Counted from the stretch's first letter, positions 36,598 to 61,168 are shown. The stretch is DNA of 64,000 nucleotides from Conexibacter sp. S30A1 (GCF_023330665.1 NZ_CP097127.1:1736001-1800000); one strand, 5' to 3'. The notes: generated by a model from the sequence alone, not told the origin. Numbers and translations are program-made.

Positions 36598-36610
36598 ACC
36601 TGGCGACGAC

Positions 36611-42001: not shown

Positions 42002-42318
42002 TCTCCCTTGTTCCTTCCCACCGATAAAGGTGCGCGGTCGCAGATCGCCGAAGCGTTGGCGGGGCATATCGGATCGCAGCCGGCGATCCCCGTGGCATCG
42101 GCAGCCACCCCAGGGCCTTGTACAGGCAGGCGATGCGCACGCCGGCTGATCCCGGGACCGCCATCGCCGGTGCTTGCGTGAACCCGCTCGATGAGTTGAC
42201 CGCAACCCGCTCCCGCCACGTGATCACGCTTTGCGACAGTGTTGGTGAGATGCGGATCCGAGATCTCCTGGCGAGCGTCGCTGGCCGGCTCGCACACAAC
42301 CGGGCGGGGGCCGCATGA
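42002..42318 (+). pseudogene. Arsenate-reductase / LMW-phosphatase-like remnant
   Basis: In one frame the DNA reads PLFLPTDKGARSQIAEALAGHIG, and after a frameshift near 42,110 another frame reads ALYRQAMRTPADPGTAIAG and NPLDELTATRSRHVITLCD. Functional relatives read LFLCTGNSARSQIAEAL and VITLCD, so the catalytic Cys of the P-loop is now Pro and the body is frameshifted. Its stop overlaps the chrA ATG (ATGA), which shows the two were once coupled. This is by-eye family matching of short motifs. Confidence 0.6.
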
Positions 42319-44059: not shown

Positions 44060-45343
44060 TCACCGCGAGTCGCGTGCCGGAAGCACACGCACCTCGATGA
44101 ACCGGCCTATCTGCTCGATCAGATCCTCCTCGCTCCAGGTGCGGCGATCGACGTTGTTGGCGCGGATCGTGAGCACGGGGATCCCGGCCGCCTCCAGCCT
44201 GCGCACACTGAAGAAGTCATCCTCACCCAGGCTGATGACACCATCAATCGCGTGCAGCCGGGCCTCCTTGAGGTGCCAGGCGCTGGACCAAGTCGGCATC
44301 CGCAGCTCCTCACCCACCGGGACAAAGCGTGCCGCCAGGGCGCGCAGAGGGTCGCGGCCGTCGAAGTAGCGCAGGTAGCCGTCCGCCGCTAGGCCCAGGT
44401 ACATCGACCAGACAAAGACGGCGTCATAGGTCTCCTGAAAGTGCTGGTAGAGCCCTAGGCTCGACCACAGCCCACGCCCCAACCACATGAGACGCAGCTT
44501 CTCACCCCGGTGCGCGGCCTGTCCGGCGTCGACCCGCTGCTGCACCTCCTCTCGCAGCAGCTGCGCCGCATCGCGCGCCCATGCGCTCCCCCGGTGCCAC
44601 TGGGGAATCATCACAGCCGGCATGGTCTCGGCCGCGCTTACCGGTGCGGGTCTCGTCCCGGCGACCAGATCACGGGTCGCGCGGTTGTGCTCGGCCTGTT
44701 CGTTGGCCAAGTGCATCACCTCGGTAAAGCGGCTTTCCGAGAAGCGCCTTCCGGTGAGCGTCTCAAGCACGCGTACCAAGCCCTTGAGCTCATCGCTCAG
44801 CAGATCCAGGCGCTCCCTCGGCAGAAAGCTCTCCCACCTGTCCGGCAGCTCCTCCCACCACTGCGCAGGCACGCGCATCCGCGTATCGACGCTGCGCTCG
44901 ACCGGCAGAAAGGTGGCCCCTGAGTGGCGGGCCCAGAGCTCGAACAGCTGGCGCATCGAGTCGCTGGATGGCGAGGCCTGCAGGATTGTGGGCCTCGGCA
45001 GGCCACCCCAGGGTGCGGTCTGCGGATCGCCGGCCAGCAGCTCTCCGAGCGGCAGCGAGTTGTACTGCTCGTGCTTGGTCGGATAGCCGGCCTGCTCGAG
45101 CGCGTCGAGATAGCGAGGGCCGAGCTGCTTGGCGGCAATCAGCGATGACCACCACTGCACGACGACATACGGGATGTCCATCGCGCGATAGATCTCATGC
45201 GGAGAATCGGCACTGAGCACCGCAAAGGGCTCACCGTCGCCGACACGCACGCGCAGCTCGCTGAACCACTCCCGCTGGTAACGGGAGAACTCAGCCGTGC
45301 AGGAAAGCTCCGGCCGACGTCGGATGCCGCGTTCCTCAGACAT
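44060..45343 (-). CDS. 2-hydroxyacyl-CoA dehydratase-family subunit without Fe-S cysteines (A)
   Basis: 427 residues of the HgdB/FldB/BcrB-type fold: DIPYVVVQWWSSLIAAKQLG, FTEVMHLANEQAEHNRATRD, EKLRLMWLGRGLWSSLG and HAIDGVISLGEDDFFSVRRL. True family members ligate a [4Fe-4S] cluster with three Cys; here the only Cys is near residue 16, and the positions that should be CP..CS, CD and FC read as Leu/Gly, Ser and Asp. The ATG at 45343 overlaps the partner subunit by 8 bases. It is the last gene of a ten-gene operon. The classical radical dehydration is therefore unlikely; binding or a different CoA-ester reaction is possible. Confidence 0.75.
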   Translation of the reverse strand: MSEERGIRRRPELSCTAEFSRYQREWFSELRVRVGDGEPFAVLSADSPHEIYRAMDIPYVVVQWWSSLIAAKQLGPRYLDALEQAGYPTKHEQYNSLPLGELLAGDPQTAPWGGLPRPTILQASPSSDSMRQLFELWARHSGATFLPVERSVDTRMRVPAQWWEELPDRWESFLPRERLDLLSDELKGLVRVLETLTGRRFSESRFTEVMHLANEQAEHNRATRDLVAGTRPAPVSAAETMPAVMIPQWHRGSAWARDAAQLLREEVQQRVDAGQAAHRGEKLRLMWLGRGLWSSLGLYQHFQETYDAVFVWSMYLGLAADGYLRYFDGRDPLRALAARFVPVGEELRMPTWSSAWHLKEARLHAIDGVISLGEDDFFSVRRLEAAGIPVLTIRANNVDRRTWSEEDLIEQIGRFIEVRVLPARDSR

Positions 45344-46532
45344 GTAGCACCTCACCTCCGGAACCAGGGCGACTGATCCGTGCACGTAGCGCCGCGGCGG
45401 CATCCCGAAGCTGCTGACCCCACTCACCTTCAGCGGCAAGCTCGACCGAGATCACTGGGGTGTCCGGCAGTAGTGCCACCAGCTCGGCCAGCTCCCAGCC
45501 GGATGCCTCATCTTCGGGCAATATAAGCTGCAGAACACCAGCGGCATGGGTTTCTGTGACGCGACGAGCAACATGACGCACACGGTCGAGCCCGGCGCGA
45601 GCGGCGCCGATCGTGCTGAACTGACAGTGGTCGGCCAGCCAGTCGATAGGGTCGCGGCTAGACAGACCGGCCGGCTCGCCGTCGGGACCGGGGGGCTCCC
45701 CGTCCGACTCGTGGTCGTCGCCGACGAGGACCAGGCCGGATTCCTCAAGCACCGAGTAGACCTGGGTGACGGGCCCGGAGCCGGTGATGAAGACGCACGG
45801 ACCCGGCAACGCCGGCGGGTGCCCCTCCGCCGGTCGGCTGCGCGCCGCTAGCATGGCCGCCAGCGCAGACCGGGCATCGGCTCCCGGGAGCGTGCGCACG
45901 CCCACGTCGGCTATCAGCGCCTCGGTGGCCGTGATACGGCCCTCCGCGCGTAGACGCCTGAGGCTACGGAGCTGATGCGTTATCAGCACATCCTCCGTGA
46001 TCGCCTGACGCACAGCGACGGGGTCGAACTCGCGCTCGGCCCACTGAGCGAGCACCGCCGCAAGCTCACGTAGACGGATGCGGTTGTACACAGCCGAGGT
46101 ACGTAGCGGCAGTCGCAGCACATCGCTGAAGGCAAGCGGCGGTAAGAGTGCACCGAACTCCGCGTCAGCTGCCATCTCGCGCAGAACGTAGAAGAGCTTT
46201 GTGTGCGCCTCGCTGTCACGGCCGATCAGAAGAGCGTCGATCCAGCCCAGACGCCCGTCAAGCAACGCGGCAACCAGCCCGAACGCGTCTGACGAGAGCT
46301 CACCGCGCAACCCGGGTGGCGCCGCTGAATCGCTGCGGCCGTCCGCTCCGACGAGTCCAACTGGATCCAGCGGGACCGGCAGCATCCCCACAGCTGTCAC
46401 CAGCTCGCGTGGGGCGTACCGTCCAAAAATCCCCACAACCTTGCCACCGCCCGCTCGCCAGCGCTCGGCGATCACCTCGGGCGAGTCATAGGCGACACCC
46501 AGCTGACCCAACCAAGCGTGGTCGTCTGGCAT
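45336..46532 (-). CDS. 2-hydroxyacyl-CoA dehydratase-family subunit without Fe-S cysteines (B)
   Basis: 398 residues. VVGIFGRYAPRELVTAVGMLPVPL is the family N-terminus; FSDVLRLPLRTSAVYNRIRLREL, PGPCVFITGSG, and THAAGVLQLILPEDEASGWEL follow in family order. The cluster positions are replaced (LRGELSS, IGRDSEAH, LPEDEA). Two remaining Cys (GPCVF, DHCQF) are not in ligand positions. It starts one base into the stop of the PF20091 hydrolase gene (TAATG) and overlaps subunit A. The pair keeps the heterodimer architecture of the dehydratases and benzoyl-CoA reductases. Confidence 0.75.
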   Translation of the reverse strand: MPDDHAWLGQLGVAYDSPEVIAERWRAGGGKVVGIFGRYAPRELVTAVGMLPVPLDPVGLVGADGRSDSAAPPGLRGELSSDAFGLVAALLDGRLGWIDALLIGRDSEAHTKLFYVLREMAADAEFGALLPPLAFSDVLRLPLRTSAVYNRIRLRELAAVLAQWAEREFDPVAVRQAITEDVLITHQLRSLRRLRAEGRITATEALIADVGVRTLPGADARSALAAMLAARSRPAEGHPPALPGPCVFITGSGPVTQVYSVLEESGLVLVGDDHESDGEPPGPDGEPAGLSSRDPIDWLADHCQFSTIGAARAGLDRVRHVARRVTETHAAGVLQLILPEDEASGWELAELVALLPDTPVISVELAAEGEWGQQLRDAAAALRARISRPGSGGEVLHV

Positions 46533-47968
46533 TAGCCCCGCTCCGTCACGGCAAACGCCGCGGCAGCTGCGTCGGTGATCTCAGCGCTGTAGCTGTGCAT
46601 GTCAGCACGACGAAGCCAGCGCCCGGAGATCATCCGTTCGAGCACCTCACCAGCCCGCCTCAGATATTCCTCACGGCCTCCCGGATACAGGCGCGCGAGC
46701 TGCTCGCGGCGCAGTGGGATCCTGTACATCGGCAGGAAGTGGGTTGCGTTGTCCTCAGCGTGTTCGGCGGGGGCACGCCCGTACCGCGCCAGCGGCAGAT
46801 CGAGCTGAACAGACCTGACGCCGCCAAGGGGGTTGCCGAACTCGTCACGCGCCACCTCCAAGGCGGCATCAAAGCGCAAGCGAGCGCTCGCGGGAGGCGC
46901 CTCGCTCTCCGTCGTCCAGCGGTCGAGGTTTGCCATCGTCGCTGAGAACAGTCGGCGCAACGGAACGTCTGAGCTGGCGAACCGACGCGGCGGCTCTGGA
47001 AGCGCGAACGGGTGACTACGCTGTCCGAGCTGGATCATGCCCGTGCGGGGCACCACGACACCGAGGTCTGTGTGCGTGGTGCCGGCGACCTCATACAGAC
47101 GGTGGCGCCCCGGTCCCTCATCTACGTCCGGCGCCTGCGACCCGATGTTGCGCTCGCCCTCGTTCTGGCTGAGGAACTCAATCACCGGGACGTCAATCGC
47201 CCGCAACCGCCGGCGCTGGTGGCCGACAGGCGCAGGCGGCACGCCAGAGTTAATCTCCAGGTAGCCGCCGCCCTGCCATGGGCTCGAGATGCCGATCACG
47301 TAGCCGTCTATCAGCGGGCCGCCGTCAGCCCGGCGCATGCTGTCGTGAAATCCCTCGTTGATGAACGTCCGCATGAAGCTGCCGAGGAAGGACCAGCCGG
47401 AGGCGTAGACCCGCTTGATCTCAAGCCCGGAGAGCATCGGACGCTCGGGGGCGCGCAGCAGCGCCGCCACATCGGCGAATATGGTCCATCGGATGCCGTC
47501 GTCCTCGGGCCAGACCAAAGGGGCATAGCGGCTCGAGTTGAACCATCGCATGACGGGCGTAGCCGACACGGGGTAATCGGCCGTGGAGCGGCCGCGCGAG
47601 AGCGCGTCGGTGCCCGTGCCCACGGCGATGTAGGCGTCGCCGGTGTCGAGACACAGCTCGGCGAGATACTCCCACTGGACCAGGCCGAGGAACGGGTGGG
47701 TCGCATTCAGATGCACAACCCCGGAGAAGTCACTGGGCCGCTGCGGACGCGCCACAAGCGCACGTGTCACAAAGGGCAGGCCGCTGCGCAGCAGCCGCGG
47801 AGCGTGCCCACCGGAGGCGTAGAGATCGCCCTCGCCACGTAGGAAGTACTCCTCCATCAGATAGCCGGCCTGTTCGAAGCGTGTCGCAGCTGTGGTGTCG
47901 GGCAGGTAGAACGGGCAGTAGACTTCGGCGGCCGAGGCATATGGGACCGCGCTGACCTCACTCAGCAT
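46532..47968 (-). CDS. Alpha/beta hydrolase domain protein (PF20091-like)
   Basis: 478 residues. FSGVVHLNATHPFLGLVQWE, AYIAVGTGTDALS, IKRVYASGWSFLGSFMRTFINEGFH and ISSPWQGGGYLEINSG resemble the large alpha/beta hydrolase domain family PF20091, in which GWSxxG/ASGWSFLG carries the nucleophile Ser. YEVAGTTHTDL near residue 300 is the conserved His region. No signal peptide is seen. In this operon it may be an esterase or lactonase acting on the imported substrate. It overlaps the CocE-type gene by 11 bases. Confidence 0.75.
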   Translation of the reverse strand: MLSEVSAVPYASAAEVYCPFYLPDTTAATRFEQAGYLMEEYFLRGEGDLYASGGHAPRLLRSGLPFVTRALVARPQRPSDFSGVVHLNATHPFLGLVQWEYLAELCLDTGDAYIAVGTGTDALSRGRSTADYPVSATPVMRWFNSSRYAPLVWPEDDGIRWTIFADVAALLRAPERPMLSGLEIKRVYASGWSFLGSFMRTFINEGFHDSMRRADGGPLIDGYVIGISSPWQGGGYLEINSGVPPAPVGHQRRRLRAIDVPVIEFLSQNEGERNIGSQAPDVDEGPGRHRLYEVAGTTHTDLGVVVPRTGMIQLGQRSHPFALPEPPRRFASSDVPLRRLFSATMANLDRWTTESEAPPASARLRFDAALEVARDEFGNPLGGVRSVQLDLPLARYGRAPAEHAEDNATHFLPMYRIPLRREQLARLYPGGREEYLRRAGEVLERMISGRWLRRADMHSYSAEITDAAAAAFAVTERG

Positions 47969-49667
47969 CGCTTGCCCCTTGCGCCGGTACCACGGGAAGC
48001 TCGATGTAGGAGGCCATCCGACCGCCCGTGTGCACGGTCACCATCGGAGGCTCGTCGAAAGGCAGATGCGTGCGCTGACGGGGGTCGGCGCCGGTCACCA
48101 CCAGACGCAGCCGGGATCCTCGGCACACAATCGTCGACGTCGGCAGCAGGTCGAAGACGTGCTCCTCGGGCTCACCGGGCACAAGCGGTAGATAGTCCTC
48201 GCGGAAGCTGCGGTGCCACGGCAGGCCCAGGTAGTCATAGGGCGGCGTACCCAACCTGCGGTGACTGGAGCGCAGGCGGCCGTGGGCGCGCAGGTGGACC
48301 TCGCCGCCGGGCTCGATCTCCTCCAGATAGGCGAAGTTGTCACCATCGGGCTGCGTGGATGAGAGCCACAAAGACACGACCGAGTGCCCGGTCAGTCGCA
48401 TGTCCCGCTCGAAAGGCGCAGTCTCGAAGCTAACGCCGTGGCCGTGCTGGGACTCTGGCCAGAATGGGGTCAACGGTTCCCACGTAATTACGGAGTAGTC
48501 GACCTCGAAGGATCGCCGGGCGGCCCGCTTCGAGTGCATAGGCGCCAGCGCCAGCCGGTCTGCATCGAGGAACCATCGCTGTGGCCGCATCCCGGGAACC
48601 GGCCAGGTCGGGCTGCTTGACCAGCTTTGCCCTGGCTCGGCGTTGTAGGTGTAGTAGTAGACGGGGTCCTCAGTGTCGATACCGTTCTGGACGCCCTTCA
48701 GATAGCGGTCGAAGAAGCGCAGGTGCTCGGCGAACATGTCAAAGTCCGGGCTCTGGCAGTGCGTGTCGGAGCCGATGAAGACCTTGACCACGTTGCGCAG
48801 GTTCGCCAGCGCGACAAACTGATCGGCGGTGAACTCGTCCCGCCAACCGGTCCAGCGGTACATAACCGGGCCGTGCATCTCCACCGCGTTGCGGTACGTG
48901 CTGAGGCTGCACTCCTCCCAGAAGCGGCTGCCGAGCGGCTTTGAGCGGTCGTCACGAAACGGTATGTCCCGCCAGATCTCGGCCATGATCGAGTTGCCCC
49001 GATGCTCGGCGCGAGCCGCCGCGAGCATCACGCCGTCTGGATCATCGTCGACCGGCAGACTGTCGACGCCCTCATCACGGGGGTCCTCGGGCCTTGTGTG
49101 AAACTGCGCGAGCAGCCCGCCACGGCAGATTGAGTCGTAGCGGTTGAAGGGCGTTGCCCCTGGGAAGATCGCCTTCAGGCTCGGCGGAGTTGTGATCGCG
49201 GCGTTGTCCTGGCTGCCTCCCAAGTACGAGCAGCCCAGCATCCCAACGTTGCCGTCACACCACGGCTGCGCAGCGAACCACTCGGTCATGTCGTAGGCGT
49301 CGCGTCCCTCAGTGCTGTCCTGCATGCCGCGGCGAAAGCCGAAGGAAGCACCCTTCCCCCGCGTGTCCACAACAGCCAGCACGTAGCCGTAGAGTGTCAG
49401 GTCGAGTGTCGGCATGTAGCCACTGGCCGGCAGTTGCAAGCTGCCGTCCGGACCAAGCACACTGCGCTGGTAGGCGGTGTGGATCCAGAGCACCGGGTGA
49501 GGCCGCTCGCTCGGCACTCCGTCTGCCACCGGCCGGTAGAGATCAACTGCGAGCCTTGTACCGTCTCGCACAGCCACGTAGAAGGAGCTTCGCTGCCAGG
49601 AGTCGTACAGGCGCTCGGAGTAGCCCTCGTAGTGTCCAGGCGAGGATCGTCGTGCTGTTGTGCTCAT
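47958..49667 (-). CDS. CocE/NonD family hydrolase (X-Pro dipeptidyl-peptidase S15 type)
   Basis: 569 residues. The S15 domain shows VAVRDGTRLAVDLYRP, VVDTRGKGASFG, and the nucleophile in GMLGCSYLGG with Ser147; the Asp and His follow in FIGSDTHCQSPD. The C-terminal jelly-roll domain has LTGHSVVSLWLSSTQPDGD and LVPGEPEEHVFDL. Family members hydrolyse acyl esters (cocaine esterase), glutaryl-beta-lactams or X-Pro peptides. Cytosolic by lack of a signal. It lies 18 bases after the CoA-transferase gene. Confidence 0.9.
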   Translation of the reverse strand: MSTTARRSSPGHYEGYSERLYDSWQRSSFYVAVRDGTRLAVDLYRPVADGVPSERPHPVLWIHTAYQRSVLGPDGSLQLPASGYMPTLDLTLYGYVLAVVDTRGKGASFGFRRGMQDSTEGRDAYDMTEWFAAQPWCDGNVGMLGCSYLGGSQDNAAITTPPSLKAIFPGATPFNRYDSICRGGLLAQFHTRPEDPRDEGVDSLPVDDDPDGVMLAAARAEHRGNSIMAEIWRDIPFRDDRSKPLGSRFWEECSLSTYRNAVEMHGPVMYRWTGWRDEFTADQFVALANLRNVVKVFIGSDTHCQSPDFDMFAEHLRFFDRYLKGVQNGIDTEDPVYYYTYNAEPGQSWSSSPTWPVPGMRPQRWFLDADRLALAPMHSKRAARRSFEVDYSVITWEPLTPFWPESQHGHGVSFETAPFERDMRLTGHSVVSLWLSSTQPDGDNFAYLEEIEPGGEVHLRAHGRLRSSHRRLGTPPYDYLGLPWHRSFREDYLPLVPGEPEEHVFDLLPTSTIVCRGSRLRLVVTGADPRQRTHLPFDEPPMVTVHTGGRMASYIELPVVPAQGASDAE

Positions 49668-49685: not shown

Positions 49686-50930
49686 TCAGATGACGCCGGC
49701 GTCACGCAGCCCCTGAATACGCTGCTCGTCGTAGCCGAGCAGACCCGCGAAGATCTCCTCGGTGTGCTCACCAAGGCGCGGCGCCAGTCGTTCAAAGCCG
49801 ACGTGGGCATTGCGCATGCGGATCGGCACACCTGCGGTGCGCAGGTGCGGGATGTCACCCAGCACGGGATGCTGCACCGGTCGTGTCTCCTTTCGCGCGT
49901 CGACACGTGGATCGCTGACAGCCTCGATCGGCGTGCGGATCGGCGCCACCGGCACTCCCTTTGCAGCCAGGCGAGCAGCGACCTCCTCTGCAGGCAGGCT
50001 CGCTGCCCAGGACTCGATCTCCATGGTCAGCTCCGCGTCATGCAGGACACGCGCATCCCGAGTTTGAAAGCGCTCATCTTCGAGCAGCTCGGGACGACCC
50101 ATGACCTCCACCAGGCCCTGCACCAGCCGGTCTTGGGGCGCAACCATCGCGAACCATCCGTCCGCACAGCGGTACACCCCGAACGGCGCCAGCCGAGGCA
50201 GCGTGGGGCCGGTGCGCAGCGGTTGGCCGAGGTCCTGGAGCGCCTGCCAGTCCTCAGTGGCGACCAGCGATGTGACGACGCCCAGCATCGAGACATCGAC
50301 GAACTCGCCCACGCCTGTGCGTTGGCGATGCTGAAGAGCGGACAGAATCCCCACGATCGCCCACACCGGTGTCATCACGTCCGCGATCGGCACACCCACC
50401 CTGATAGGCGGATCCTCGGGACCACCGCTTGTCAGCATGGTCCCGCTGAGCGCCTGAATGATCGTGTCCATTGCCCGCACGCCCGGGTCGGCGTCGGCAC
50501 CGAATCCGCTGATGGCGCAGTAAACGATCTGCGGGTTGGCGGCAGACGCCGCCTCGTAGCCCACACCCAGCCGGTCCGCCGTGCCGCTCGTGAAGTTCTC
50601 CACCACCACGTCGGCGTTGCGCACCAGATCGGCGAACACCTCCTTTGCCTCTGGATGCTTGAGGTTGAGGGTGACGCTGCGCTTGCCGCGCAGACGCGTG
50701 AGCGCCGCCAACGAGATGTCCTCGGGCGAGGTGGCAGCGAGCGTTAGCCCGTTGGGACCGATGTAGGGAGCGTTGCCGCGAGAGATGTCGCCACCGCGAG
50801 GGTCCTCAACCTTGATGACGTCGGCACCCAGCCCGCCGAGGATCAGCGTGCAGAAGGGCCCCGCCAGCGCTCGTGTCAGATCGATCACCCTAACGCCCTC
50901 AAGCGGGTACCCGTTCTGTGAAGCCGCCAT
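49686..50930 (-). CDS. CaiB/BaiF family CoA-transferase (class III)
   Basis: 414 residues. GVRVIDLTRALAGPFCT, LGADVIKVEDPRGGD, ENFTSG and the catalytic Asp155 in AMDTIIQALSG are the family signatures. It moves CoA between acyl donors through an aspartyl anhydride. The ATG at 50930 shares a base with the CapA stop (TGATG) and has GGGAG upstream. In fermentative pathways such an enzyme (FldA, HadA, CaiB) supplies CoA esters to 2-hydroxyacyl-CoA dehydratases, which makes its presence with the dehydratase-like pair meaningful. Confidence 0.93.
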   Translation of the reverse strand: MAASQNGYPLEGVRVIDLTRALAGPFCTLILGGLGADVIKVEDPRGGDISRGNAPYIGPNGLTLAATSPEDISLAALTRLRGKRSVTLNLKHPEAKEVFADLVRNADVVVENFTSGTADRLGVGYEAASAANPQIVYCAISGFGADADPGVRAMDTIIQALSGTMLTSGGPEDPPIRVGVPIADVMTPVWAIVGILSALQHRQRTGVGEFVDVSMLGVVTSLVATEDWQALQDLGQPLRTGPTLPRLAPFGVYRCADGWFAMVAPQDRLVQGLVEVMGRPELLEDERFQTRDARVLHDAELTMEIESWAASLPAEEVAARLAAKGVPVAPIRTPIEAVSDPRVDARKETRPVQHPVLGDIPHLRTAGVPIRMRNAHVGFERLAPRLGEHTEEIFAGLLGYDEQRIQGLRDAGVI

Positions 50931-52072
50931 CACTCCCGCTCCCCAGCGCCCGCCGCGGGCCAAACACGCACCCGCTCCCCGTCCCATTCAAACTCGGTGG
51001 CCAAGCCGGCCTCTTCGCCGATGGTGCGCACGTAGTCGACCACGCGCTGCCCCTCCTCGCGACCCAGGGGCACCGGTCGCGCATCATCGTCAATCCAGCA
51101 CGGGATCAGGCCCGGGCTCAGAGACCCGTCGGCGTCCACCTCACAGTCGGCGATGATCGTGTTGCGGCTCTCTGGGTTGAAGGGGTATGTGGGCATCTTC
51201 GGATCGGGCCGGAACCCGTAGAGCTGCTCGCGGCGGAGCGCCCAGGCACGGGCCTCCGGCGTGTGGCTGTCAGTGGGCGAGAGCGCACTGGTGACGGTCA
51301 CGAAGTTGCCTAGCCCGTGATAGATCGGCCGGCCCCGGTAGATCTCGATCCCGCGCATGATGTGAGCGTGGTGCCCCACGACGATGTCGGCACCTGCGTC
51401 GATCACAGCATGCGAGAGGTCGCGCTCATACATCGCGATCTGGCTGCGCACGTGGCCGATGCCCTTATGCAGAGCGACCACAACGATGTCCACCGTAGGT
51501 CGCACGGCGGCGAGATCAACGCGCAGCTCAGCTACGCTCTCTGGGGCGGCGAAGGTGTAGATAGTCGGCGGACCGCCGGGCGATGCGTGATCCAGCTCGT
51601 AGTGGGTGAGCACGTTCACATAGGCGCAGCCGGGCTTTGAGGCACGCGCCCATCCGTCCTTTGGACCTACGCAGTTGTAGCTGAAGACCGCGACCGAGAC
51701 GCCTCCGGCGGCGATGCGGGCCGGTTCTCGAGCCTCCCGGAGGGTCATGCCGGCGCCGGTGGTGTGGATGCCAAGCTCGCGAAGCTTGGTGATCGTGTCC
51801 TCGATCGCATCGGCACCCTGATCAGCGAGGTGGTTGCCGGCCAGGGTGGCCACGTTGAAACCGGCCTTGGGGAGTGCCTCGAGATGCTCAGGCCGCGCCG
51901 GCGGCGCTGGTACGTCGGTGCTCTGCAGGCGCCCGCGCGTCGAGTGCGGGACCTCCACCTGGCCTATCACCACGTCGCCGGTGCAGAGCCGAGGCGCGCT
52001 GGGCGCAAAGAAAGAGTCCGGGTCTGGCTCGTCCAGAATCAAGTCACCCACAATTAGGATGCGTGCGCTCAC
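50930..52072 (-). CDS. CapA-like metallophosphatase-fold protein
   Basis: 380 residues of the PGA_cap/CapA family. GDLILDE, VATLAGNHLADQGADAIEDT, VALHKGIG and DIVVGHHAHIMRGIEIYRGRPIYHGLGNF carry the metal-binding Asp, Asn and His residues. CapA acts in poly-gamma-glutamate synthesis or release; here no signal peptide or anchor is present and no cap genes accompany it, so a cytosolic amide or phosphoester hydrolase in the same pathway seems more likely. It starts 32 bases after the ABC ATPase gene. Confidence 0.87.
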   Translation of the reverse strand: MSARILIVGDLILDEPDPDSFFAPSAPRLCTGDVVIGQVEVPHSTRGRLQSTDVPAPPARPEHLEALPKAGFNVATLAGNHLADQGADAIEDTITKLRELGIHTTGAGMTLREAREPARIAAGGVSVAVFSYNCVGPKDGWARASKPGCAYVNVLTHYELDHASPGGPPTIYTFAAPESVAELRVDLAAVRPTVDIVVVALHKGIGHVRSQIAMYERDLSHAVIDAGADIVVGHHAHIMRGIEIYRGRPIYHGLGNFVTVTSALSPTDSHTPEARAWALRREQLYGFRPDPKMPTYPFNPESRNTIIADCEVDADGSLSPGLIPCWIDDDARPVPLGREEGQRVVDYVRTIGEEAGLATEFEWDGERVRVWPAAGAGERE

Positions 52073-52104: not shown

Positions 52105-53112
52105 TCATGACTGCGGCGTCATCGCTGGAATCTCTGATTCTGCTTTTTCGTCGAGGTCGCGCGCGACCTCCTCGTAGCGGTGGCAGGCCACGAGCGTCGG
52201 ACCATCGGTGAGACGCAGAGCCGGCCGGCTCTGCTCGCACTGCTCGGTCGCGAAGACGCAGCGATGCCGGTACTGGCAGCTGTCTTCAAGCGGTGGCGCC
52301 GGCGCTACAGGCTTGCGCAGACGCTCGCGCGTAGCCCTCGATGCCGCCCGAGCGACGGGATCGATCTCCGGCACCGCGGCCACCAGGCCGCGCGTGTAGG
52401 GATGCCGCGGCCGGTTGCTCACCGCCCTGGCCGGCCCTGTCTCGGCGATGCGCCCCCGATAAAGGACGACGACCTCATCGCATAGCATCTCGACCACGCT
52501 GAGGTCGTGGGAGATGAAGAGATAGCTGATCCCATGAGTCTCGCGCAACTGCACGAGCAGGTTGATGATCTGAGCCTGGACCGAGAGATCCAGCGCCGAG
52601 AGCGCCTCGTCGCAGATCACCAGCTTGGGCTTGACGATCAGGGCACGCGCGATGGCAATCCGCTGGCGCTGTCCGCCGGAGAATTGTGCGGGATAAAGCT
52701 TCGCCGCCGACGCTTGAATCCCAACCGACTCGAGCATCTGCTCGGTCCGTGCGCGCACCTCCTGGGCTCCCAGCTCACGACCGTGGTGCACGCGCAGTGG
52801 CTCGGCGACGCTGTAGCCGATCGTCTTGGTCGGATCCAGCGAGCTGTATGGGTCTTGAAACACCATCTGCACGCTTTGGCGCGGTGCCGCGGCCGCCCCT
52901 CCGCCGAGCGTGACAGTTCCGGCCGTGATGGGCGCGAGGCCGACGATCGCCCGGGCGATCGTCGACTTTCCGGATCCGGACTCACCAACCAGCCCTACCG
53001 TCTGTCCCGCAAGCACGTTGAAGCTCACGTCGTCCAGGGCCCGCCGCAGCTGCCCTCGTGGGAGCTGGTAGTCGACGACCAGCCCTTCGACGCTCAGCAG
53101 GGGCTCGCTCAC
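52105..53112 (-). CDS. Peptide-type ABC transporter ATP-binding protein (DppF-like)
   Basis: 335 residues. Walker [10 protein letters not shown], signature FSGGQRQRIAIARAL, Walker B LVICDEALSALD, H-loop FISHDLSV, and a C-terminal oligopeptide-transporter domain with the Cys-rich CQYRHRCVFATEQC. It pairs with the ATPase half of the fused gene upstream. ATGA overlap with that gene. Confidence 0.93.
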   Translation of the reverse strand: MSEPLLSVEGLVVDYQLPRGQLRRALDDVSFNVLAGQTVGLVGESGSGKSTIARAIVGLAPITAGTVTLGGGAAAAPRQSVQMVFQDPYSSLDPTKTIGYSVAEPLRVHHGRELGAQEVRARTEQMLESVGIQASAAKLYPAQFSGGQRQRIAIARALIVKPKLVICDEALSALDLSVQAQIINLLVQLRETHGISYLFISHDLSVVEMLCDEVVVLYRGRIAETGPARAVSNRPRHPYTRGLVAAVPEIDPVARAASRATRERLRKPVAPAPPLEDSCQYRHRCVFATEQCEQSRPALRLTDGPTLVACHRYEEVARDLDEKAESEIPAMTPQS

Positions 53113-55076
53113 TGCCTCACCTCAGTAGGGGTCCGCGAGAGCTCCGCAGACAGCACCTCAGCGCGCACACAGCGAGCCTGATCAGTCGCCGTAACCTGCC
53201 GCAGGATGATCGGCTCGCGGACGCATGCATCCGTCGCGTAGCCGCAACGTGGGGCAAAGTGGCACCCGACAGGCCAGTCCTGAGGGCTCGGTACCATCCC
53301 TGGGATCGTGCTGAGCTGCCCGCCCTGCCACGAGCCGGGGTTGGCGCTCATCAGCGCGCGCGTATATGGGTGCATCGGCTGGTCGAACAGCTCGGAGGCC
53401 TGCGCGACCTCGACGACCTCTCCTGCGTACATGACGCAGACCCGGTCGCAGATCTCCGAGACCACGCCGAGGTCGTGACTGACCAAGATCAGCGCCATCC
53501 CGGTGTCCTGCTGCAGCCTCCGCAACAAATCCAAGATCTCCGCCTGAACCGTGACGTCCAGGGCCGTGGTCGGCTCATCAGCGATCAGCAGCCGCGGCTT
53601 GCCGGCAAGTGCCATTGCGATGGCGACCCGCTGGGCCATCCCGCCTGAGATCTCATGCGGGTAGCGCTGCGCCACGTCCTCGGGATCCAAGATCTGAACT
53701 CGCCCGAGCAACTCGATCGCGCACTCGCGCGCCTGCGCCCGGGTGCAGCCGTCCAGTGACCTGACGAGGTCGGCGAGCAGGCGCCCGACGCGGTAGGAAG
53801 GGTCAAGGGCGCGCATGGGCTCCTGCGTGACGATCGAGACGCCGCGACCCCGCACCGAGCGGTACGCGTCTGCACCGCCGGTGGTGAGCTCCGTCCCCTC
53901 GAACCACACCGCTCCTTCAGTAACGGCCACGCCAGCCGGCAGAAGACCAGCGATCGCCTTCATCGTGATCGACTTGCCGCTGCCTGACTCTCCCACGATC
54001 CCAAGGGCCTCACCGAAACCGACATGGAGGGACACTTCCTTGATCAGGAAAGTCTGCGCACTGTCGGCCCCGACGGCCACGCTGAGGCCGGTGGCCGCCA
54101 GCAGAGCGCCTTCAGGCGCCGCCCCTGCCCGGGGGGAATCTGGGCGCCGGCGCACCCTGTGCCTGCCCCCAGCCACGCCGGCCGAATGCGAGTCGGCGAT
54201 GGCGTCACGCACCACGTCTCCGAGTACGCCGAAGGCGATCACAGTGAGCGCGATGACAACCCCGGACGGGACCAGCTGCCAGGGCGCAACGTAGAACTGC
54301 GAGACAGCGTCGGCGACCATACCACCCCACGTCGGGGCGGGCGGCGCCGGCCCGAGCGAGAGAAACGTAAGCCCGGTCTGAACACCGAGCGCGATCGCGG
54401 CGAAAAGCGCTGCCTGCACCACGATCACACCCCGGCACTGCGGCAGGACGTGGCGGAAGATGATGTCGGTACGCCGCACGCCGATCACCTTCGCCGCGTC
54501 GATGAACGCCTCCGAGCGGGCGGCGAGCGCCGCGCTGCGAACCACGCGCGTCACACCGGCCGAGCCGAGCACACCAAAGGCGATCATCGCCGTGGTCATG
54601 CTGTGCCCAAAGATGGCGAGCACTGCCAGCAGGATGATGATGACCGGGATCGACATCACCAGGTCCGCACCTCGGGTGATGATCCTGTCGGTGAGCCCGC
54701 CTACGTAGCCTGCGATCACACCAAGCGGAATCGAGATGATCAGCAACGCCCCGAGCGCCTCCGCGATCCCAACCAGGCTCGAGCGCCCACCGTACAGAAT
54801 GCGGGTGAGGAGGTCCCGCCCGAGCTCGTCGGTTCCAAGCAGATGGTGAATGGAGGGTCCCTGATTGACGGCCAAGAGGTTCTGGACGTTGGGACCACCG
54901 GAGGTCAGCACCCCCGCCAACTCGCAGGCCAGGAAGATCAGCACCAGATAGACGAGGGCGCTCGCACCCCGCTTGGAAGTGACGATCGTACGGAGGATTC
55001 CTTTAGGGGCCACCGCCGAGACCGACGCTGCTGCATCGGCCTCGTTCTCGAGCACTGCGGGCGTGGCCACGCTCAT
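53109..55076 (-). CDS. Fused ABC permease (DppC-like) and ATPase (DppD-like)
   Basis: 655 residues. Residues 1-300 are an OppC/DppC permease with about six helices, the [17 protein letters not shown] entry motif and the EAA loop [19 protein letters not shown]. After an Arg/Pro-rich linker, residues 330-650 are a complete ATPase: [35 protein letters not shown] and a C-terminal [14 protein letters not shown] cluster. The two functions are separate genes in most dpp operons, so the fusion fixes a one-to-one permease-ATPase ratio. Overlaps both neighbours by 4 bases (ATGA). Confidence 0.93.
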
Positions 55077-56011
55077 GTCGTCTTCGCTCTGGGGTTCAGG
55101 AGCCCGTAGGTGATGTCAACCAGCAGGTTGATGACGACCACGATGATCGTGAAGTAAAGGCCGATCCCAAGAATCACCGGCAGGTCATGGTCCACCGTTG
55201 ACTGTGTCGCCAGGCTGCCCAACCCGGGCAGCACAAAGACGCTCTCTACAAAGACCGTGCCGCCGAGGGTGCCGATCGCGACCACGCCTAGGACGGTCAC
55301 GATCGGCATCGCCGCGTTGCGCAGGACGTGCTTGAACATGATCTCCCGCTCGCTCATACCGTTGCCTCGCAGCATCGCGATGTAGTCGGCCTCAAGCGCG
55401 CTCAAAATGGCGTCACGAGACTGCTTGGCGACCGACGCTACCCCGAGCAGGCTGAGAGCGGCGACGGGCAGGATCAGGTGCACGATCCAACCGGTCGGGG
55501 ACTGTCCGAAAGCCTCATAACCAGTGGCCGGAAAGATCCTGATCTTCACGGCGAAGACTGCCACGAGCATGGTCCCCACCCAGAAGCTCGGTAGCGCCAG
55601 GCCCGTGAGCGAGACAACATCAAGGAGGCGGCCGACCCACCCGCCGCGGCGAGCGCTCGCAAGTCCGAGGGCGGTCCCCACGATCGCGCTCACAATTACG
55701 CTGAGGACCACGAGTGATAGCGTCACCGGCAGGCGGGCGCTGAGGAGCGTTCCGACACTCTCACCGCTGATCACCGAAGTGCCAAGGTGCCCGTGCAGGA
55801 CGCCGTCGAGCCAGTTCCAGAAACCGACAAGCAGGGGCTTGTTGAGGCCCAGTTGCCTGTCCAAAGCTGCCACATTCTGGGGCGTGGCGTTCTGACCCAG
55901 GATCGTCTCGGCCGGGTTGCCGGGGACGAGCGACTCCAGCGCGAAGATGATGAAGGAGACGAGCAGGATGAGCGGGATCGCCGTGATCGCACGGAAGCCG
56001 ACGATCCTCAT
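55073..56011 (-). CDS. Peptide-type ABC transporter permease (DppB-like)
   Basis: 312 residues with six membrane helices. VSFIIFALESLVPGNPAE and LDRQLGLNKPLLVGFWNWL are the N-terminal OppB/DppB motifs; the EAA loop reads LEADYIAMLRGNGMSEREIMFKHVLRNA. The ATG at 56011 fits family N-termini; a GTG at 56065 would add an Arg-rich 18-residue extension. Confidence 0.92.
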   Translation of the reverse strand: MRIVGFRAITAIPLILLVSFIIFALESLVPGNPAETILGQNATPQNVAALDRQLGLNKPLLVGFWNWLDGVLHGHLGTSVISGESVGTLLSARLPVTLSLVVLSVIVSAIVGTALGLASARRGGWVGRLLDVVSLTGLALPSFWVGTMLVAVFAVKIRIFPATGYEAFGQSPTGWIVHLILPVAALSLLGVASVAKQSRDAILSALEADYIAMLRGNGMSEREIMFKHVLRNAAMPIVTVLGVVAIGTLGGTVFVESVFVLPGLGSLATQSTVDHDLPVILGIGLYFTIIVVVINLLVDITYGLLNPRAKTT

Positions 56012-56104
56012 CAGCCAGAACCCGGGAACCCTGTCTCTCCTGCCGCCTCTCACCTCATGCCTCACGCTGGAGTCTTGACTACTGGACCTGCTCTGCGGAA
56101 TCTC

Positions 56105-57736
56105 CTACTTCATCGCCCAAGACGTAGCGGACGTGGGGCCGACCGGAATCGGGTTGGGATCCAGGAACGACTCAGTGACGTTCACGAGCTTCGGCGAGAC
56201 GTAGTTCGGCGAGAGCGCGAGGACGCCGGGAATCCAGCTGGCCAACGAATCCAGCTGCCTATCGACCTTCTGGTAAAGCCTGGTCTGCGCCGCACCGGAG
56301 CTTGCGTAGGCCTTGGCGAGCGTAGACGCGATCGCGGGCGGCGTGGGCAGGTGCGCCGGGTTGAAGACGCCCGGTGTCAGGATCTGCTGGGCCACCTGGT
56401 ACATGTCGACACCGGCGCCCGGAAAGACCACGATCCCGTACTTGCCGGTCTGTGCCGCAGCGATAAACTGCCCGATTCCGGTCGAGATCACGGTCATTTT
56501 GGTCTTGATGCCGATGTCCGTCAGATTCTGAGTGAGCGCCTGAGCGGTGGTTGTGTTGGGGTCGATCAGCGACTCCGCCAGCACCGGCACGGTGAAGCCA
56601 TGCGGATAGCCGGCCTGCTTCATCAGGGCCTTCGCCTTGGCCAGGTTGTAGGTCCAGCCAGCACCCTTGACGTAGCCGTCCGCCTGCGGCATCGCCACCT
56701 CCGTAGCCGGGCTGGTGATCGCTGCGCCGAGCGCCCTGGCGAGCGCAGGACGGTTCAGGGCGTAGGCGATCGCCTCTCGCACCTTGAGCTTGTCCAGGGC
56801 GGGCACGATGTTCTTGCGCCACGGGACGATGAGTTCCCACTGGAAAAACGGCTCCTTGTAGATCCGCAGACCAGCGGCCTTGGCTGCGGCGAGCGTGGTC
56901 GGAGCCCCGCTGGCGAACTGGACCTCATTGGTCTGCATCGCTGAGAGCACGGACGTCGGGTCGCCGATCACCTTGACCTGGATCTGGCTGAAGTGCTGAG
57001 CCGACGGGTTGAAGTAGTGCGGGTTGCGTTTGTAGGTGTAGACGCTGTTTGTGGTTGAAGCGCCATTGTCATAGATGTACTGCCCGGTGCCATCGCTGCT
57101 CGTCAGCAGCGAGCTCGGATGGGCGAGACCCTTGGGACCGATGATCTGGCCGATCCCGTAGAACTGGTCCATCGTGCCTACGGCATCCGGATTGGCAGTC
57201 TTCCACCTGACGAGGACCTTGTAAGCGCTGGGCGCGGTGATCGAGGTGATGTCACCAACACCTCCGACCAAGCCGCCTCCGGCCCTGAGGAAGTACTTCA
57301 TCGACGCGACGACGTCCTTGGCCGTCATCGCGGTGCCGTCGGTGAACTTCACGCCGCGGCGCAGCGTAAGTTCGAAGGCCTTGTGACCCTTGCGGACATA
57401 CCTCCAGGAGGTCGCCAGATCGGGCAGGAACTTTCCACGGCTGCTCAGGTAGATCAGCGGGTCGTACGCAAGCGCGGTGTACACGGCGGATCCGCCGTTA
57501 CCGCCGAGCGCCGGGTTCAGGCTGATCGGCGGGCCAGCGAATTGCACGGCCAAGTCGCCGCCGTTTGCCACCTTGGCGCGGTGGCTTGTCCTCACGCGCG
57601 CTGCGGATGCGGCGCTCGAGCCGCACCCGGCCAACAACCCGATGACAGCGGTCGCGCTCACCCCGTAAATCACAGACCGTCCGGCTGCGGCGAGCGGACG
57701 CCCGCCGTGACGCGTCTTTGCAACAAACAGCGACAT
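56105..57736 (-). CDS. Solute-binding lipoprotein, family 5
   Basis: 543 residues. A lipobox LLAGC (Cys38) follows a hydrophobic segment, so the protein is anchored outside the membrane. ISLNPALGG, LAYDPLIYLSSRGKFLPDLATSW, FELTLRRGVKFTDGTAMTAKDVV and LKVREAIAYALNRPALA are SBP_bac_5 motifs. The family binds peptides but also nickel, opines, sugars and other solutes. First gene of the operon; AGAGGAG lies before the ATG. A shared 18-bp motif sits about 50 bases upstream. Confidence 0.93.
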   Translation of the reverse strand: MSLFVAKTRHGGRPLAAAGRSVIYGVSATAVIGLLAGCGSSAASAARVRTSHRAKVANGGDLAVQFAGPPISLNPALGGNGGSAVYTALAYDPLIYLSSRGKFLPDLATSWRYVRKGHKAFELTLRRGVKFTDGTAMTAKDVVASMKYFLRAGGGLVGGVGDITSITAPSAYKVLVRWKTANPDAVGTMDQFYGIGQIIGPKGLAHPSSLLTSSDGTGQYIYDNGASTTNSVYTYKRNPHYFNPSAQHFSQIQVKVIGDPTSVLSAMQTNEVQFASGAPTTLAAAKAAGLRIYKEPFFQWELIVPWRKNIVPALDKLKVREAIAYALNRPALARALGAAITSPATEVAMPQADGYVKGAGWTYNLAKAKALMKQAGYPHGFTVPVLAESLIDPNTTTAQALTQNLTDIGIKTKMTVISTGIGQFIAAAQTGKYGIVVFPGAGVDMYQVAQQILTPGVFNPAHLPTPPAIASTLAKAYASSGAAQTRLYQKVDRQLDSLASWIPGVLALSPNYVSPKLVNVTESFLDPNPIPVGPTSATSWAMK

Positions 57737-58077: not shown

Positions 58078-59682
58078 TCAGTTGATGCGCCGGCTCCGGC
58101 CCGCCCAGTAGGGCTCGCGCAGCTTGCTCTTGAGGATCTTGCCGGGCCCGGATTTGGGCAGCGGCTCGTGCAGGATGTCGATCGAGCGGGGAATCTTGTA
58201 GCCGGCGATCAGACTGCGGCAGTGCTCGATCAGCGCCTCGGCGCTCGGCTCGGCGCCGGGATGAACACTGACGACAGCGTGCACAGCCTCCCCCCAGCGC
58301 GGGTCCGGTATCCCGAAGACTGCGGCTTCCAAGACCGCCGGATGCTCGGCCAGCGCCGACTCGACTTCGATGCTGTAGACGTTCTCCCCGCCGGTGACGA
58401 TCATGTCCTTGAGCCGGTCCACGAGGAAGACGTAGCCCTGCTCATCCATCCAGCAGGCATCGCCGGTGTGATACCAGCCGTCCCGGAGCGCGGTGGCGGT
58501 TTCGTGCTCGCGGTTCCAGTAGCCCAGCATCACGTTGGGCCCGCGCACGCACAGCTCGCCCACCTCACCGGCCGGCAGCCACTCCCCGCCCGTACCCCTG
58601 ACGGCAACCTCCACCCCCATGATCGGCGTGCCCACGGAGGCCAGGCGCTTGGCGTAGGCGGAGTCTCCGGCGAGCCCGCGGCGGTGATCGACGTCGGAGA
58701 GCCGCGTGACGGAAGGTGCTGCCTCCGTCATCCCATACAGCTGGACGATGTCGCAGCTGAAGTACTCGAGCACCTGGCGCTGAAGGGCCGGGGTGATGGG
58801 GGAGGCGGCATACTGGATGTGACGGATCGACGGCAGGCCTCCGCCCGTGTCGCGACTCAGCTCATCCATCAGCATCGCGAGCATCGTCGGTACCAGCACG
58901 CAGTGCGTGACCGACTCGCGCCGCACGAGCTCAATAAGCAACCGCGCCTCAAAGCGCGGGGCTATCACCTGCACGCTCCCCGCCCAGGTGCAGGCAAAGA
59001 CGTTGGCGGTTCCGGCGACGTGGAACATCGGCGAGACGTGTAGCCAGCGGTCCTCATGAGCATGCCCGGTGACGATCAGGTTGTGCCGTGCGTTGGCCAG
59101 CAGGTTCTCGTGGCTGAGCATCACCCCCTTGGGCTTGCCGGTGGTGCCGCCCGTGTAGCAGATCCCGGCCAGCTCATCGCCGGATCGCGGGACGTAGGCG
59201 AGCGGCTCATGCTCAATCAGCTCACCGTAGGGGAGCTGCTCTCCGCCCGCTTCACCGTCAACAAGCACCACCCGCTGAAGGCTCGGGCAGCGCTGGCGCA
59301 GCGTTGCGGCAACCCCCAGGCGCTCGCTGTCGGCAAACAGCACCTGCACGCCGCAGTCGTTGATGATGAACTCGAGCTCAGCCTCCGCCAGGCGGAAGTT
59401 GAGGTCCACGAGAACACGGCCGGCCGACGGCACCGCGAACCAGCACTCCAGATGCGGAAGCGAGTTTACGCCGAGAAACCCGACGCGGCCGCCGTCGGGC
59501 ACGCCGAGGCCCGCCAGCGAGCCGCCGAGCGCGGCGACGCGAGCGGCGAGCTCACGGTAGCTGACACGGGCCGGCCCGTCGATGACCGCGAGCGCGTCCC
59601 CGTGCAGGGCGGCCGCGCGGCGCAGCGGCCAGGCCAGGTCACCGCTCGGACTTCTGGGCGCAGTGGGCTCTCCGACCCTCAT
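58078..59682 (-). CDS. Acyl-CoA synthetase (ANL superfamily)
   Basis: 534 residues. The phosphate-binding loop is YTGGTTGKPKG, followed by VQLYGMTEAAPSV, WYHTGDACWMDEQG, and the catalytic Lys in GPGKILKSKLRE. These activate a carboxylic acid through an acyl-adenylate to its CoA ester; the substrate class (fatty, aromatic or dicarboxylic) cannot be read. The ATG at 59682 is preferred over 59700, since the latter lies inside the palindromic operator. It diverges from the MaoC-SDR-amidohydrolase operon. Confidence 0.92.
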   Translation of the reverse strand: MRVGEPTAPRSPSGDLAWPLRRAAALHGDALAVIDGPARVSYRELAARVAALGGSLAGLGVPDGGRVGFLGVNSLPHLECWFAVPSAGRVLVDLNFRLAEAELEFIINDCGVQVLFADSERLGVAATLRQRCPSLQRVVLVDGEAGGEQLPYGELIEHEPLAYVPRSGDELAGICYTGGTTGKPKGVMLSHENLLANARHNLIVTGHAHEDRWLHVSPMFHVAGTANVFACTWAGSVQVIAPRFEARLLIELVRRESVTHCVLVPTMLAMLMDELSRDTGGGLPSIRHIQYAASPITPALQRQVLEYFSCDIVQLYGMTEAAPSVTRLSDVDHRRGLAGDSAYAKRLASVGTPIMGVEVAVRGTGGEWLPAGEVGELCVRGPNVMLGYWNREHETATALRDGWYHTGDACWMDEQGYVFLVDRLKDMIVTGGENVYSIEVESALAEHPAVLEAAVFGIPDPRWGEAVHAVVSVHPGAEPSAEALIEHCRSLIAGYKIPRSIDILHEPLPKSGPGKILKSKLREPYWAGRSRRIN

Positions 59683-59692
59683 TTGACGCAAC

Positions 59693-59716
59693 GGTAACAT
59701 TCGGTTACCTGATATT
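59693..59716. promoter_or_regulatory. Shared regulatory element, site 2, with palindrome
   Basis: GGTAAC-ATTCG-GTTACC (59693-59709) is a perfect 6-5-6 inverted repeat, and its right side runs into the attcggttacctgatatt element shared with site 1. It lies between the divergent acyl-CoA ligase and MaoC genes. A TetR, GntR or MarR-type dimer is the expected reader; the MarR gene at 62.1 kb is the closest candidate. Confidence 0.6.
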
Positions 59717-59771: not shown

Positions 59772-60239
59772 ATGGCCAGCGTCGACACGACTGGATACAC
59801 AACCGATATGGCAGGGCTCAAGCAGAGCGTCGGGCGCACGCTGGGTCCGACCGAATGGTCGGAGATGACCCAGGATCTCGTGGATGAGTTCGCGGAGCTC
59901 ACCGGCGATCACAACTTCATCCACGTGGATCCGCTGCGGGCGCGCGACACCCAGTTCGGCGGCACCATCGCGCATGGCTTCCTCTCGCTCGCGCTGCTGG
60001 CACCTGTCACCCAGCTGCTGTCTGTCGCAGACGCCGCCACGAGCATCAACTACGGGCTGAACAAGGTCCGCTTCCCAGGGCCGCTGAAGGTGGGCGCCCG
60101 CTACCGCGGCGTCGCCGAGATCACCGCCGCAGCGCAGATCAGAGGCGGGGTTGAGGTGCATATGACCGCGACGATGGAGGTACAGAACGCGGAGCGCCCC
60201 GCCGTGGTGGCCGAGTCGGTTGTGAGGTTCTACGCATGA
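59772..60239 (+). CDS. MaoC-like (R)-specific enoyl-CoA hydratase
   Basis: 155 residues with a hot-dog fold. The hydratase motif is FAELTGDHNFIHVDPLRA with the catalytic Asp and His, followed by GTIAHGFLSLALL and NYGLNKVRFPGPLKVG. It hydrates a trans-2-enoyl-CoA, or dehydrates a 3-hydroxyacyl-CoA. GGAG precedes the ATG. It overlaps the SDR gene (ATGA). Confidence 0.92.
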   Translation: MASVDTTGYTTDMAGLKQSVGRTLGPTEWSEMTQDLVDEFAELTGDHNFIHVDPLRARDTQFGGTIAHGFLSLALLAPVTQLLSVADAATSINYGLNKVRFPGPLKVGARYRGVAEITAAAQIRGGVEVHMTATMEVQNAERPAVVAESVVRFYA

Positions 60240-61168
60240 GCGGCCTGACGCTGGATGGCAAGGTAGCGATCGTCACCGGCAGCGGCCAGGGCCTGGGCCG
60301 AGCCTACGCGGTTGCGCTGGCCCAGGCCGGCGCCGCCGTGGTGGTCAACGACCTCAACGCACAGGCCGCCACGGAGACCGTCGCGCTGGTCACAGCCGCT
60401 GGCGGCCGCGCCGTAGCCGAGGTCGGCGCGGTTGGCCCGAGCGCCGTCGCCCAGGCACTCGTTGACCGTGCGGTGGCCACGTTCGGCCGCCTGGACATCC
60501 TCGTCACCAACGCAGGAGTGCTGCGCGACCGGGTGCTCTGGAAGATGTCCGACGAGGACTTCGACTTGGTGATCGAGACGCACCTGCGCGGCACATTCAC
60601 GTGTGCGCGTGCCGCAGCGATCCGGATGCGCGAGCAGGGCGAGGGCGGGCGGATCATCGTCATAGGATCGCCCGCGGGCGAGTTCGGCAACTTCGGCCAG
60701 ACCAACTACGCGGCCGCCAAGTCCGGCATCGTCACGTTCGCACGCGTGTGGTCGATGGAGCTCGCGCGGGACCGCATCACCGCCAACGCGGTGATCCCGA
60801 CGGCCTGGACGCAGATGACGGCGACGATCCCGATCTACGAGCCGCTCGTGGGGCCGGCCGCCGCCGGTGAGGCGTTTCCTGCCGAGGTCCGACGCGAGCA
60901 CGCCATCGGCTGGCCAGAGGAGTGCGCGCCGCTTGTCGTCTTTCTCGCTTCCGAAGCCGCTGCCGACATCAACGGGCAGGCGATCGGTATCGGCGGCGAC
61001 CGGCTCACGCTTTACGCGCACTCCGGGGAGCTGCTTCACCAGCTGCGCGACGGCGGCTGGAACGCGGAGGCTATCGGGCAGGCTTGGGCATCGTCGTTTG
61101 CCGCCCACCGCCAGCCCTCCGGCGTGACGCTGCCACCACTGCACCTCCAGCCGGAGGCGGGAGCATGA
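60236..61168 (+). CDS. Short-chain dehydrogenase/reductase
   Basis: 310 residues. TGSGQGLG is the cofactor-binding glycine motif, VNDLNAQA after strand 2 favours NAD(H), NAG is in VTNAGVLRD, and the catalytic Ser, Tyr and Lys lie in VIGSPAGEFG and YAAAKSG. The C-terminal 50 residues extend beyond the usual 250-residue core, as in the hydroxyacyl-CoA dehydrogenase domain of multifunctional beta-oxidation enzymes. With MaoC upstream it probably oxidises a 3-hydroxyacyl-CoA. ATGA overlaps on both sides. Confidence 0.92.
   Translation: MSGLTLDGKVAIVTGSGQGLGRAYAVALAQAGAAVVVNDLNAQAATETVALVTAAGGRAVAEVGAVGPSAVAQALVDRAVATFGRLDILVTNAGVLRDRVLWKMSDEDFDLVIETHLRGTFTCARAAAIRMREQGEGGRIIVIGSPAGEFGNFGQTNYAAAKSGIVTFARVWSMELARDRITANAVIPTAWTQMTATIPIYEPLVGPAAAGEAFPAEVRREHAIGWPEECAPLVVFLASEAAADINGQAIGIGGDRLTLYAHSGELLHQLRDGGWNAEAIGQAWASSFAAHRQPSGVTLPPLHLQPEAGA

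Follow-up and report, generated by a model that had tools for sequence, protein, structure and literature searches.

By the defining sequence tests, the two HGD-D proteins A and B encoded side by side in the window (the whole stretch of 64,000 nucleotides of Conexibacter sp. S30A1 DNA that was analysed) are neither a 2-hydroxyacyl-CoA dehydratase nor a benzoyl-CoA reductase. On balance, and with modest confidence, we favour the interpretation that they form a heterodimer of HGD-D descent without clusters or activase, which would carry out non-redox CoA-thioester chemistry in an aerobic, hydroxycinnamate-type catabolism of phenolics. The Cys-less pair is apparently a widespread branch in mostly aerobic bacteria that has not been described previously; the literature search, with subscription papers largely outside its scope, returned nothing specific on Cys-less or aerobic HGD-D proteins, and an earlier description is possible. 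The radical dehydratase/benzoyl-CoA reductase family is the textbook oxygen-sensitive, ATP-activated Fe-S enzyme, and the A/B clade with its intermediates shows in a direct and testable way how a radical fold may be turned to other chemistry. It also implies that '2-hydroxyacyl-CoA dehydratase', the annotation that many proteins of aerobic Actinomycetota would receive, cannot be their true identity, and the clade probably marks a step in plant-phenolic degradation that is new to science. Beyond what the first-pass annotation of this DNA had proposed, the analysis adds the link to hydroxycinnamate and 4-hydroxybenzoate, a conserved CapA-like partner, and the distribution of the whole family.

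Table 1. Genes of the A/B operon and of the adjoining phenolic-catabolism region, in window coordinates.
Feature	Coordinates	Strand	Remarks
Subunit A	44060..45343	-	HGD-D protein, HadB/BzdO (alpha) type, 427 aa
Subunit B	45336..46532	-	HGD-D protein, HadC/BzdN (beta) type, 398 aa
Abhydrolase_10 (PF20091) hydrolase	46532..47968	-	1-bp overlap with B
CocE/NonD family hydrolase (Peptidase S15 + PepX_C)	47958..49667	-	
Family III CoA-transferase	49686..50987	-	most constant partner
CapA-like (PGA_cap) protein	50930..52072	-	distant relative of lasso-peptide epimerase MslH
Oligopeptide-type ABC transporter	52105..57736	-	same operon; components in the next four lines
Transporter ATPase	52105-53112	-	
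Transporter fused permease/ATPase	53109-55076	-	
Transporter permease	55073-56065	-	
Transporter substrate-binding protein	56105-57736	-	
Acyl-CoA ligase	58078..59700	-	CouL-like position
MaoC-like hydratase	59772..60239	+	CouM-like
SDR dehydrogenase	60236..61168	+	CouN-like; homologue (54-63% identity) near 14/80 loci
Amidohydrolase PF04909	61165..62040	+	CouO-like; homologue (52-64% identity) near 14/80 loci
MarR-family regulator	62109..62570	-	adjoins the CouLMNO-like genes
PaaK-like aryl-CoA ligase	62869..64000	+	continues past the window end to 64143
GntR-like gene	64210-64980		outside the window, after the PaaK-like ligase
PobA-like 4-hydroxybenzoate 3-monooxygenase	65048-66244		outside the window, after the GntR-like gene

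Both reading frames were found intact where the first-pass annotation had placed them (Table 1), A running from an ATG at 45343, with GGAGGTGAG upstream, to a stop at 44060. The TTG at 45439, which the ORF tool had taken as the start of A, was dismissed as too far upstream, the ATG having both GGAGGTGAG and the overlap with B. The translational coupling proposed earlier is borne out by an 8-bp overlap of A and B, and B overlaps the preceding gene by 1 bp. The proposed membership of the HGD-D family also held, as A and B scored 109.1 and 54.3 bits, respectively, against PF06050, for which the Pfam gathering cut-off is 28.4 bits and a match was required over most of the profile; these scores, together with the fold matches in the PDB, exclude an unrelated family.

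The fold claim was checked by structure prediction on A and on a fused relative. The model of A (pLDDT 90.2, pTM 0.90) has BzdO, MbdO and HadB as its best PDB matches, with a TM of about 0.8 and an E value of 1e-15. Eight relatives are natural B-A fusions, and in the predicted fold of one of them, an 818-aa Povalibacter protein (pLDDT 90.4, pTM 0.91), the N half resembles BzdN/HadC (TM 0.84) and the C half resembles HadB/BzdO (TM 0.85 to HadB), which supports a B-A heterodimer. By analogy with the homologous half of this fusion, B of the window is taken to have a HadC/BzdN-like fold. In both folds and in the layout of the pair A/B is like HadBC, the (R)-2-hydroxyisocaproyl-CoA dehydratase (PDB 3O3M/N/O), and like FldBC/HgdAB, with which it also has in common the neighbouring family III CoA-transferase and a conserved Tyr in the acyl-CoA pocket. 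The class I benzoyl-CoA reductases BzdNO and MbdNO (PDB 8S02, 9G87) provide the best fold match of A and have an aromatic context in common with it, while the double-cubane cluster proteins (DCCP; 6ENO) have the same superfamily fold but match it more weakly, and A/B has neither their cluster ligands nor a DCCP-R reductase.

The central claim, that all six Fe-S ligands have been lost, was examined by aligning the family proteins (83 A, 80 B) with canonical subunits from the same searches (28 A-type, 27 B-type), these controls being of the Bzd/Mbd and Had types. The ligand columns of A are those of HadB C84, C117 and C346 (3O3M numbering), equivalent to the cluster cysteines C95, C128 and C380 of BzdO (PMC11971306). 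Cys was found in 28/28 A-type controls at each of the three columns, and in 27/27, 27/27 and 26/27 of the B-type controls, whereas A of the window has E92, S127 and a deletion, and B has S80, S107 and D341. The only cysteines left, C15 in A and C246 and C303 in B, are at none of these columns. Ligand cysteines overlooked in A/B are therefore ruled out by the alignment to the 55 canonical subunits, and the pair has neither the alpha ligands of HadBC and BzdNO/MbdNO, nor the beta ligands of the former, nor the double-cubane cysteines of the latter. Among the family A proteins first examined, ligand cysteines were present in 3/83; the other 80, having mainly Glu, then Gly/Thr/Ser, then a deletion at the three columns, share the Cys-less pattern, which is thus more than chance.

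At the column of the catalytic Glu (HadB E55, BzdO E65) family A has Gln in 83/83 proteins, Q63 in the window, while the controls have Glu in 27/28. HadB S37 is replaced by Ala, which we count as weak evidence since Ser is found in only 17/28 canonical controls. In the BzdO structure the thioester oxygen is held by Tyr97, Tyr298 and Gln274 (PMC11971306); both tyrosines are invariant in family A (Y94 and Y315 in the window), and the Gln274 column is Arg in 95% of the family (R290). Many other residues are invariant, for example those of the PQWHRG, GRGLW and AADGY-R segments. As the Tyr pair is kept while the cluster and the Glu are lost, A probably retains the acyl-CoA-binding part of the enzyme and has lost the radical-making part, provided that the kept residues have kept their role; the tyrosines could instead be structural.

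Across 85,462 species genomes, one scan yielded 126 stretches encoding relatives of A, of which 80 loci were kept. They span Actinomycetota (including Amycolatopsis, Pseudonocardia, Streptomyces, Nocardia, Rhodococcus, Arthrobacter and Nocardioides), Pseudomonadota, Chloroflexota and Bacillota, with Caulobacter, Sphingomonas, Povalibacter, Paenibacillus, Litchfieldia and Chloroflexota MAGs also among the carriers, so that the gene arrangement recurs in relatives across four phyla. B adjoins or is fused to A in 77/80 loci, and of the three in which B was not found, one is on a contig of 2 kb and another has unread bases. In the tree a very long branch (3.24 changes per column), with full support, separates the family from the canonical proteins, and A of the window falls among other Actinomycetota MAGs as sister to the fused clade. 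Within its own genus a close A was found in 1/27 other genomes searched; a class-wide search with B gave no orthologue outside its own genome, because B diverges fast. The median pairwise identity was 0.57 for A and 0.34 for B, and in comparison with the same-genus orthologue dN/dS was about 0.08 for A and about 0.35 for B, values that are approximate as dS was about 1.4. A is the constrained subunit and is under strong purifying selection.

In the operon of the window ten genes follow in the order substrate-binding protein, permease, permease/ATPase, ATPase, CapA-like protein, CoA-transferase, S15 hydrolase, Abhydrolase_10, B and A; distances between neighbours run from -11 to +39 bp except for one 58-bp overlap at the start of the CoA-transferase, which is probably over-long. 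Neighbours in the 80 loci were counted by tblastn, since GC-based gene calling gave shadow ORFs in high-GC loci. The results showed that a family III CoA-transferase was near A in 78/80 loci, the two exceptions being contigs of 2 and 6 kb, followed by the CapA-like protein (63), a PaaX-type regulator (52), a polar-amino-acid-type ABC transporter (50), an S15 homologue (21) and a P450 (18). Around the Cys-keepers of the Caulobacter search, TRAP transporters accompany the module. Among loci L044, L062, L082 and L117, MmgE/PrpD-family genes occur with it in L044, L062 and L117, and four CoA-transferases in a row with a TRAP transporter in Povalibacter and Sphingomonas. The CoA-transferase of the window matches PF02515 from 1 to 366 of 366 profile positions (E 7.4e-112), so that its assignment to family III stands; its likening to the FldA/HadA partner of true dehydratases is less secure, the nearest named NCBIfam models, far under their cut-offs, being succinate-glutarate and succinyl-CoA:mesaconate CoA-transferases and the nearest solved proteins CaiB/BaiF, formyl-CoA and succinate-HMG transferases. 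The CapA-like protein has as its closest relatives of solved structure the entries 8GQ9/8ITG, named 'poly-gamma-glutamate synthesis protein', and matches MslH in NCBIfam; a role in the same pathway as a metal-dependent epimerase or hydrolase is therefore possible.

The near-constant pairing with a CoA-transferase, the absence of the known catalytic elements (the cluster and the Glu) and the fast evolution of B would also be expected if A/B were a pseudo-enzyme that catalyses nothing itself and serves as a scaffold or carrier for CoA esters, either lending stability to the CoA-transferase or the CapA-like protein, or channelling or sensing aryl-CoA. We regard this as the less probable account, though one with real weight, given that the conservation of A (its median identity, its invariant residues and its spread over four phyla) exceeds what a scaffold usually needs. 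The first-pass annotation had offered a CoA-ester-binding complex, a non-radical lyase or a regulatory scaffold; the kept thioester tyrosines tip the balance, though not decisively, towards a CoA-ester enzyme rather than a scaffold alone.

The residues that took the place of the cysteines suggest another possibility, in which A/B is a metalloenzyme with new ligands, a mononuclear site being formed either by an Asp/Cys/Asp-type set where the B cluster used to sit or by the Glu that replaced an A ligand. Family B has Cys in 0, 48 and 0 of 80 proteins at columns one, two and three, with Asp in 66/80 at the first, Ser in 20/80 besides the Cys at the second and Asp in 73/80 at the third, and a conserved E-D-H-D motif lies nearby, while the first ligand column of family A is Glu in 57/83. 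The set varies, however, as in the two serines and D341 of B in the window, and the B motif is lost in the fused members L118 and L119; moreover, the second position of A is mostly Gly/Ser/Thr, the third is deleted, and B is the less conserved subunit, all of which makes such a site improbable.

The preferred reading, non-redox thioester chemistry in phenolic catabolism, draws in part on the genes beside the operon. There a CoA ligase, a MaoC-like hydratase, an SDR, a PF04909 amidohydrolase and a MarR regulator lie together, which we take, from families and gene order only, to be the content of Rhodococcus jostii CouLMNO and CouR (cou/phd pathway); to our knowledge, known cou clusters contain no HGD-D pair. 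The genes of the cou hydroxycinnamate pathway have been described (PMC4737184). In the genome of the window a PobA homologue lies 2.5 kb beyond the CouO-like and MarR genes, and a cytochrome oxidase (COX1) is encoded; in carrier genome G006 a PobA-like gene directly follows A, and PobA, PcaG, PcaH, PcaB or a tannase/feruloyl esterase is found near L038, L056, L057, L058, L093 and L118. CouN- and CouO-like homologues are each found near 14 loci, 12 of these having both, in Streptomyces, Nocardia, Blastococcus and Geodermatophilus. A rough chance expectation for such a gene near a locus is 1-2%, assuming one to three genes per 4-8 Mb genome. Within 10 kb of most related loci, Cou-like genes are absent. 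A Cou-like gene set of Rhodococcus is reported in a study of piperine catabolism, the main text of which names neither a dehydratase nor a CoA-transferase (PMC12753220).

In the mechanism that we propose, the transporter and the two hydrolases (S15 and Abhydrolase_10) would supply an arylalkanoic acid, which the CoA-transferase would convert to its CoA ester. Within the old benzoyl/hydroxyacyl channel, Y94, Y315 and R290 of A would grip the thioester carbonyl, and A would perform acid-base chemistry on the acyl chain, be it elimination, hydration or isomerisation, via an enolate-like intermediate, and B would be a fast-evolving structural partner where the electron relay used to be. The product would then enter CouLMNO-like side-chain shortening and yield 4-hydroxybenzoate for PobA. 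Because elimination of an alpha-OH is chemically hard when it is free of radicals (PMC11574389), beta-elimination, hydration or isomerisation is favoured. Against this proposal, the CapA-like, multiple CoA-transferase, P450 and MmgE/PrpD neighbours make up no single obvious pathway, and the family III CoA-transferases are a big and diverse family. A bolder version, to which we give little credence, would make A/B a cluster-free, oxygen-tolerant maker of hydroxycinnamoyl-CoA from aryl-hydroxyacyl-CoA (for example, hydroxyphenyllactyl-CoA from rosmarinate-type esters), the aerobic counterpart of FldABC working without a ketyl radical; if true, the living intermediates would document the swap of radical for polar chemistry.

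It is very improbable that A/B is still a radical dehydratase with its cluster on non-Cys ligands and its activase encoded elsewhere, as the fold and operon partner, which are those of HadABC/FldABC, and the rare cases in which Asp, Glu or Ser ligate Fe-S clusters (PMC11574389) would permit. An activase elsewhere in the genome was ruled out by a search of the whole genome, itself 94% complete, without a match to the ATP-dependent activase model TIGR00241, which extends the earlier statement that the window has no activator; PF01869 also gave nothing above cut-off in this genome, and its matches alone were given no weight because unrelated kinases match as well. G006 likewise lacks an activase, and one was above cut-off in only 4/41 carrier genomes tested. 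In the control genome G013 of the same genus (L121 / L005), two activase genes lie beside a canonical benzoyl-CoA reductase pair of the Bzd/Mbd type in which no cysteine is missing. Unlike HadBC/FldBC/HgdAB, the A/B pair of the window has no activase, nor one of the BzdPQ type as in BzdNO/MbdNO; the carriers of the family are mostly aerobes, the catalytic Glu is replaced in all close members and the third A ligand is deleted. As for a decaying remnant of a horizontally acquired dehydratase, which the lost catalytic residues and the sparse occurrence in the genus might suggest, it is essentially refuted by the intact frames, the strong Shine-Dalgarno, the purifying selection on A and the arrangement kept over four phyla, so that changed chemistry rather than decay, as first proposed, is upheld.

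The Cys-keeping relatives bear on how the change came about. The three A cysteines all persist in Paenibacillus fonticola and Litchfieldia, in a Chloroflexota MAG and in two genomes of the search around Caulobacter, and two are kept in three further genomes from that search; the remaining relatives have none, and no additional Cys-keeping member turned up among 299 genomes searched in the Paenibacillus class. These proteins already have Gln at the Glu column and Ala at S37, and in Paenibacillus and Litchfieldia the B subunits are without cluster cysteines and no activase was found. On the simplest reading, the change of Glu to Gln and the loss of the B ligands would have come first and the loss of the A cysteines later, and other chemistry seems to have been reached by stepwise remodelling of an anaerobic radical enzyme. 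Members with two or three A cysteines (L157-L161 and L162-L167) have an extra cysteine, in C-x-Y-C and sometimes C-D-C, which could supply a fourth protein ligand to any cluster that they may have.

Two more divergent paralogues in Chloroflexota (L131 and L147) have neither the Cys nor the Gln, and one has Phe at the first tyrosine. The Chloroflexota locus L170 (G1178) contains two divergent B-A copies, with A-like genes at 7694-8757 and 14436-15647, that flank CoA-transferases and a P450 and have CapA-like and S15 genes close by; Cys and Gln are absent from both A-like copies, one of which has Phe at the first conserved tyrosine. In the window itself, a chromate efflux transporter (42315-43505, + strand) is encoded on the opposite strand beside the operon's 3' end, and a P-type ATPase (36515-41495, + strand) appears split over two overlapping frames (1190 aa to 40087, then 502 aa from 39987), suggestive of a frameshift or a sequencing error.
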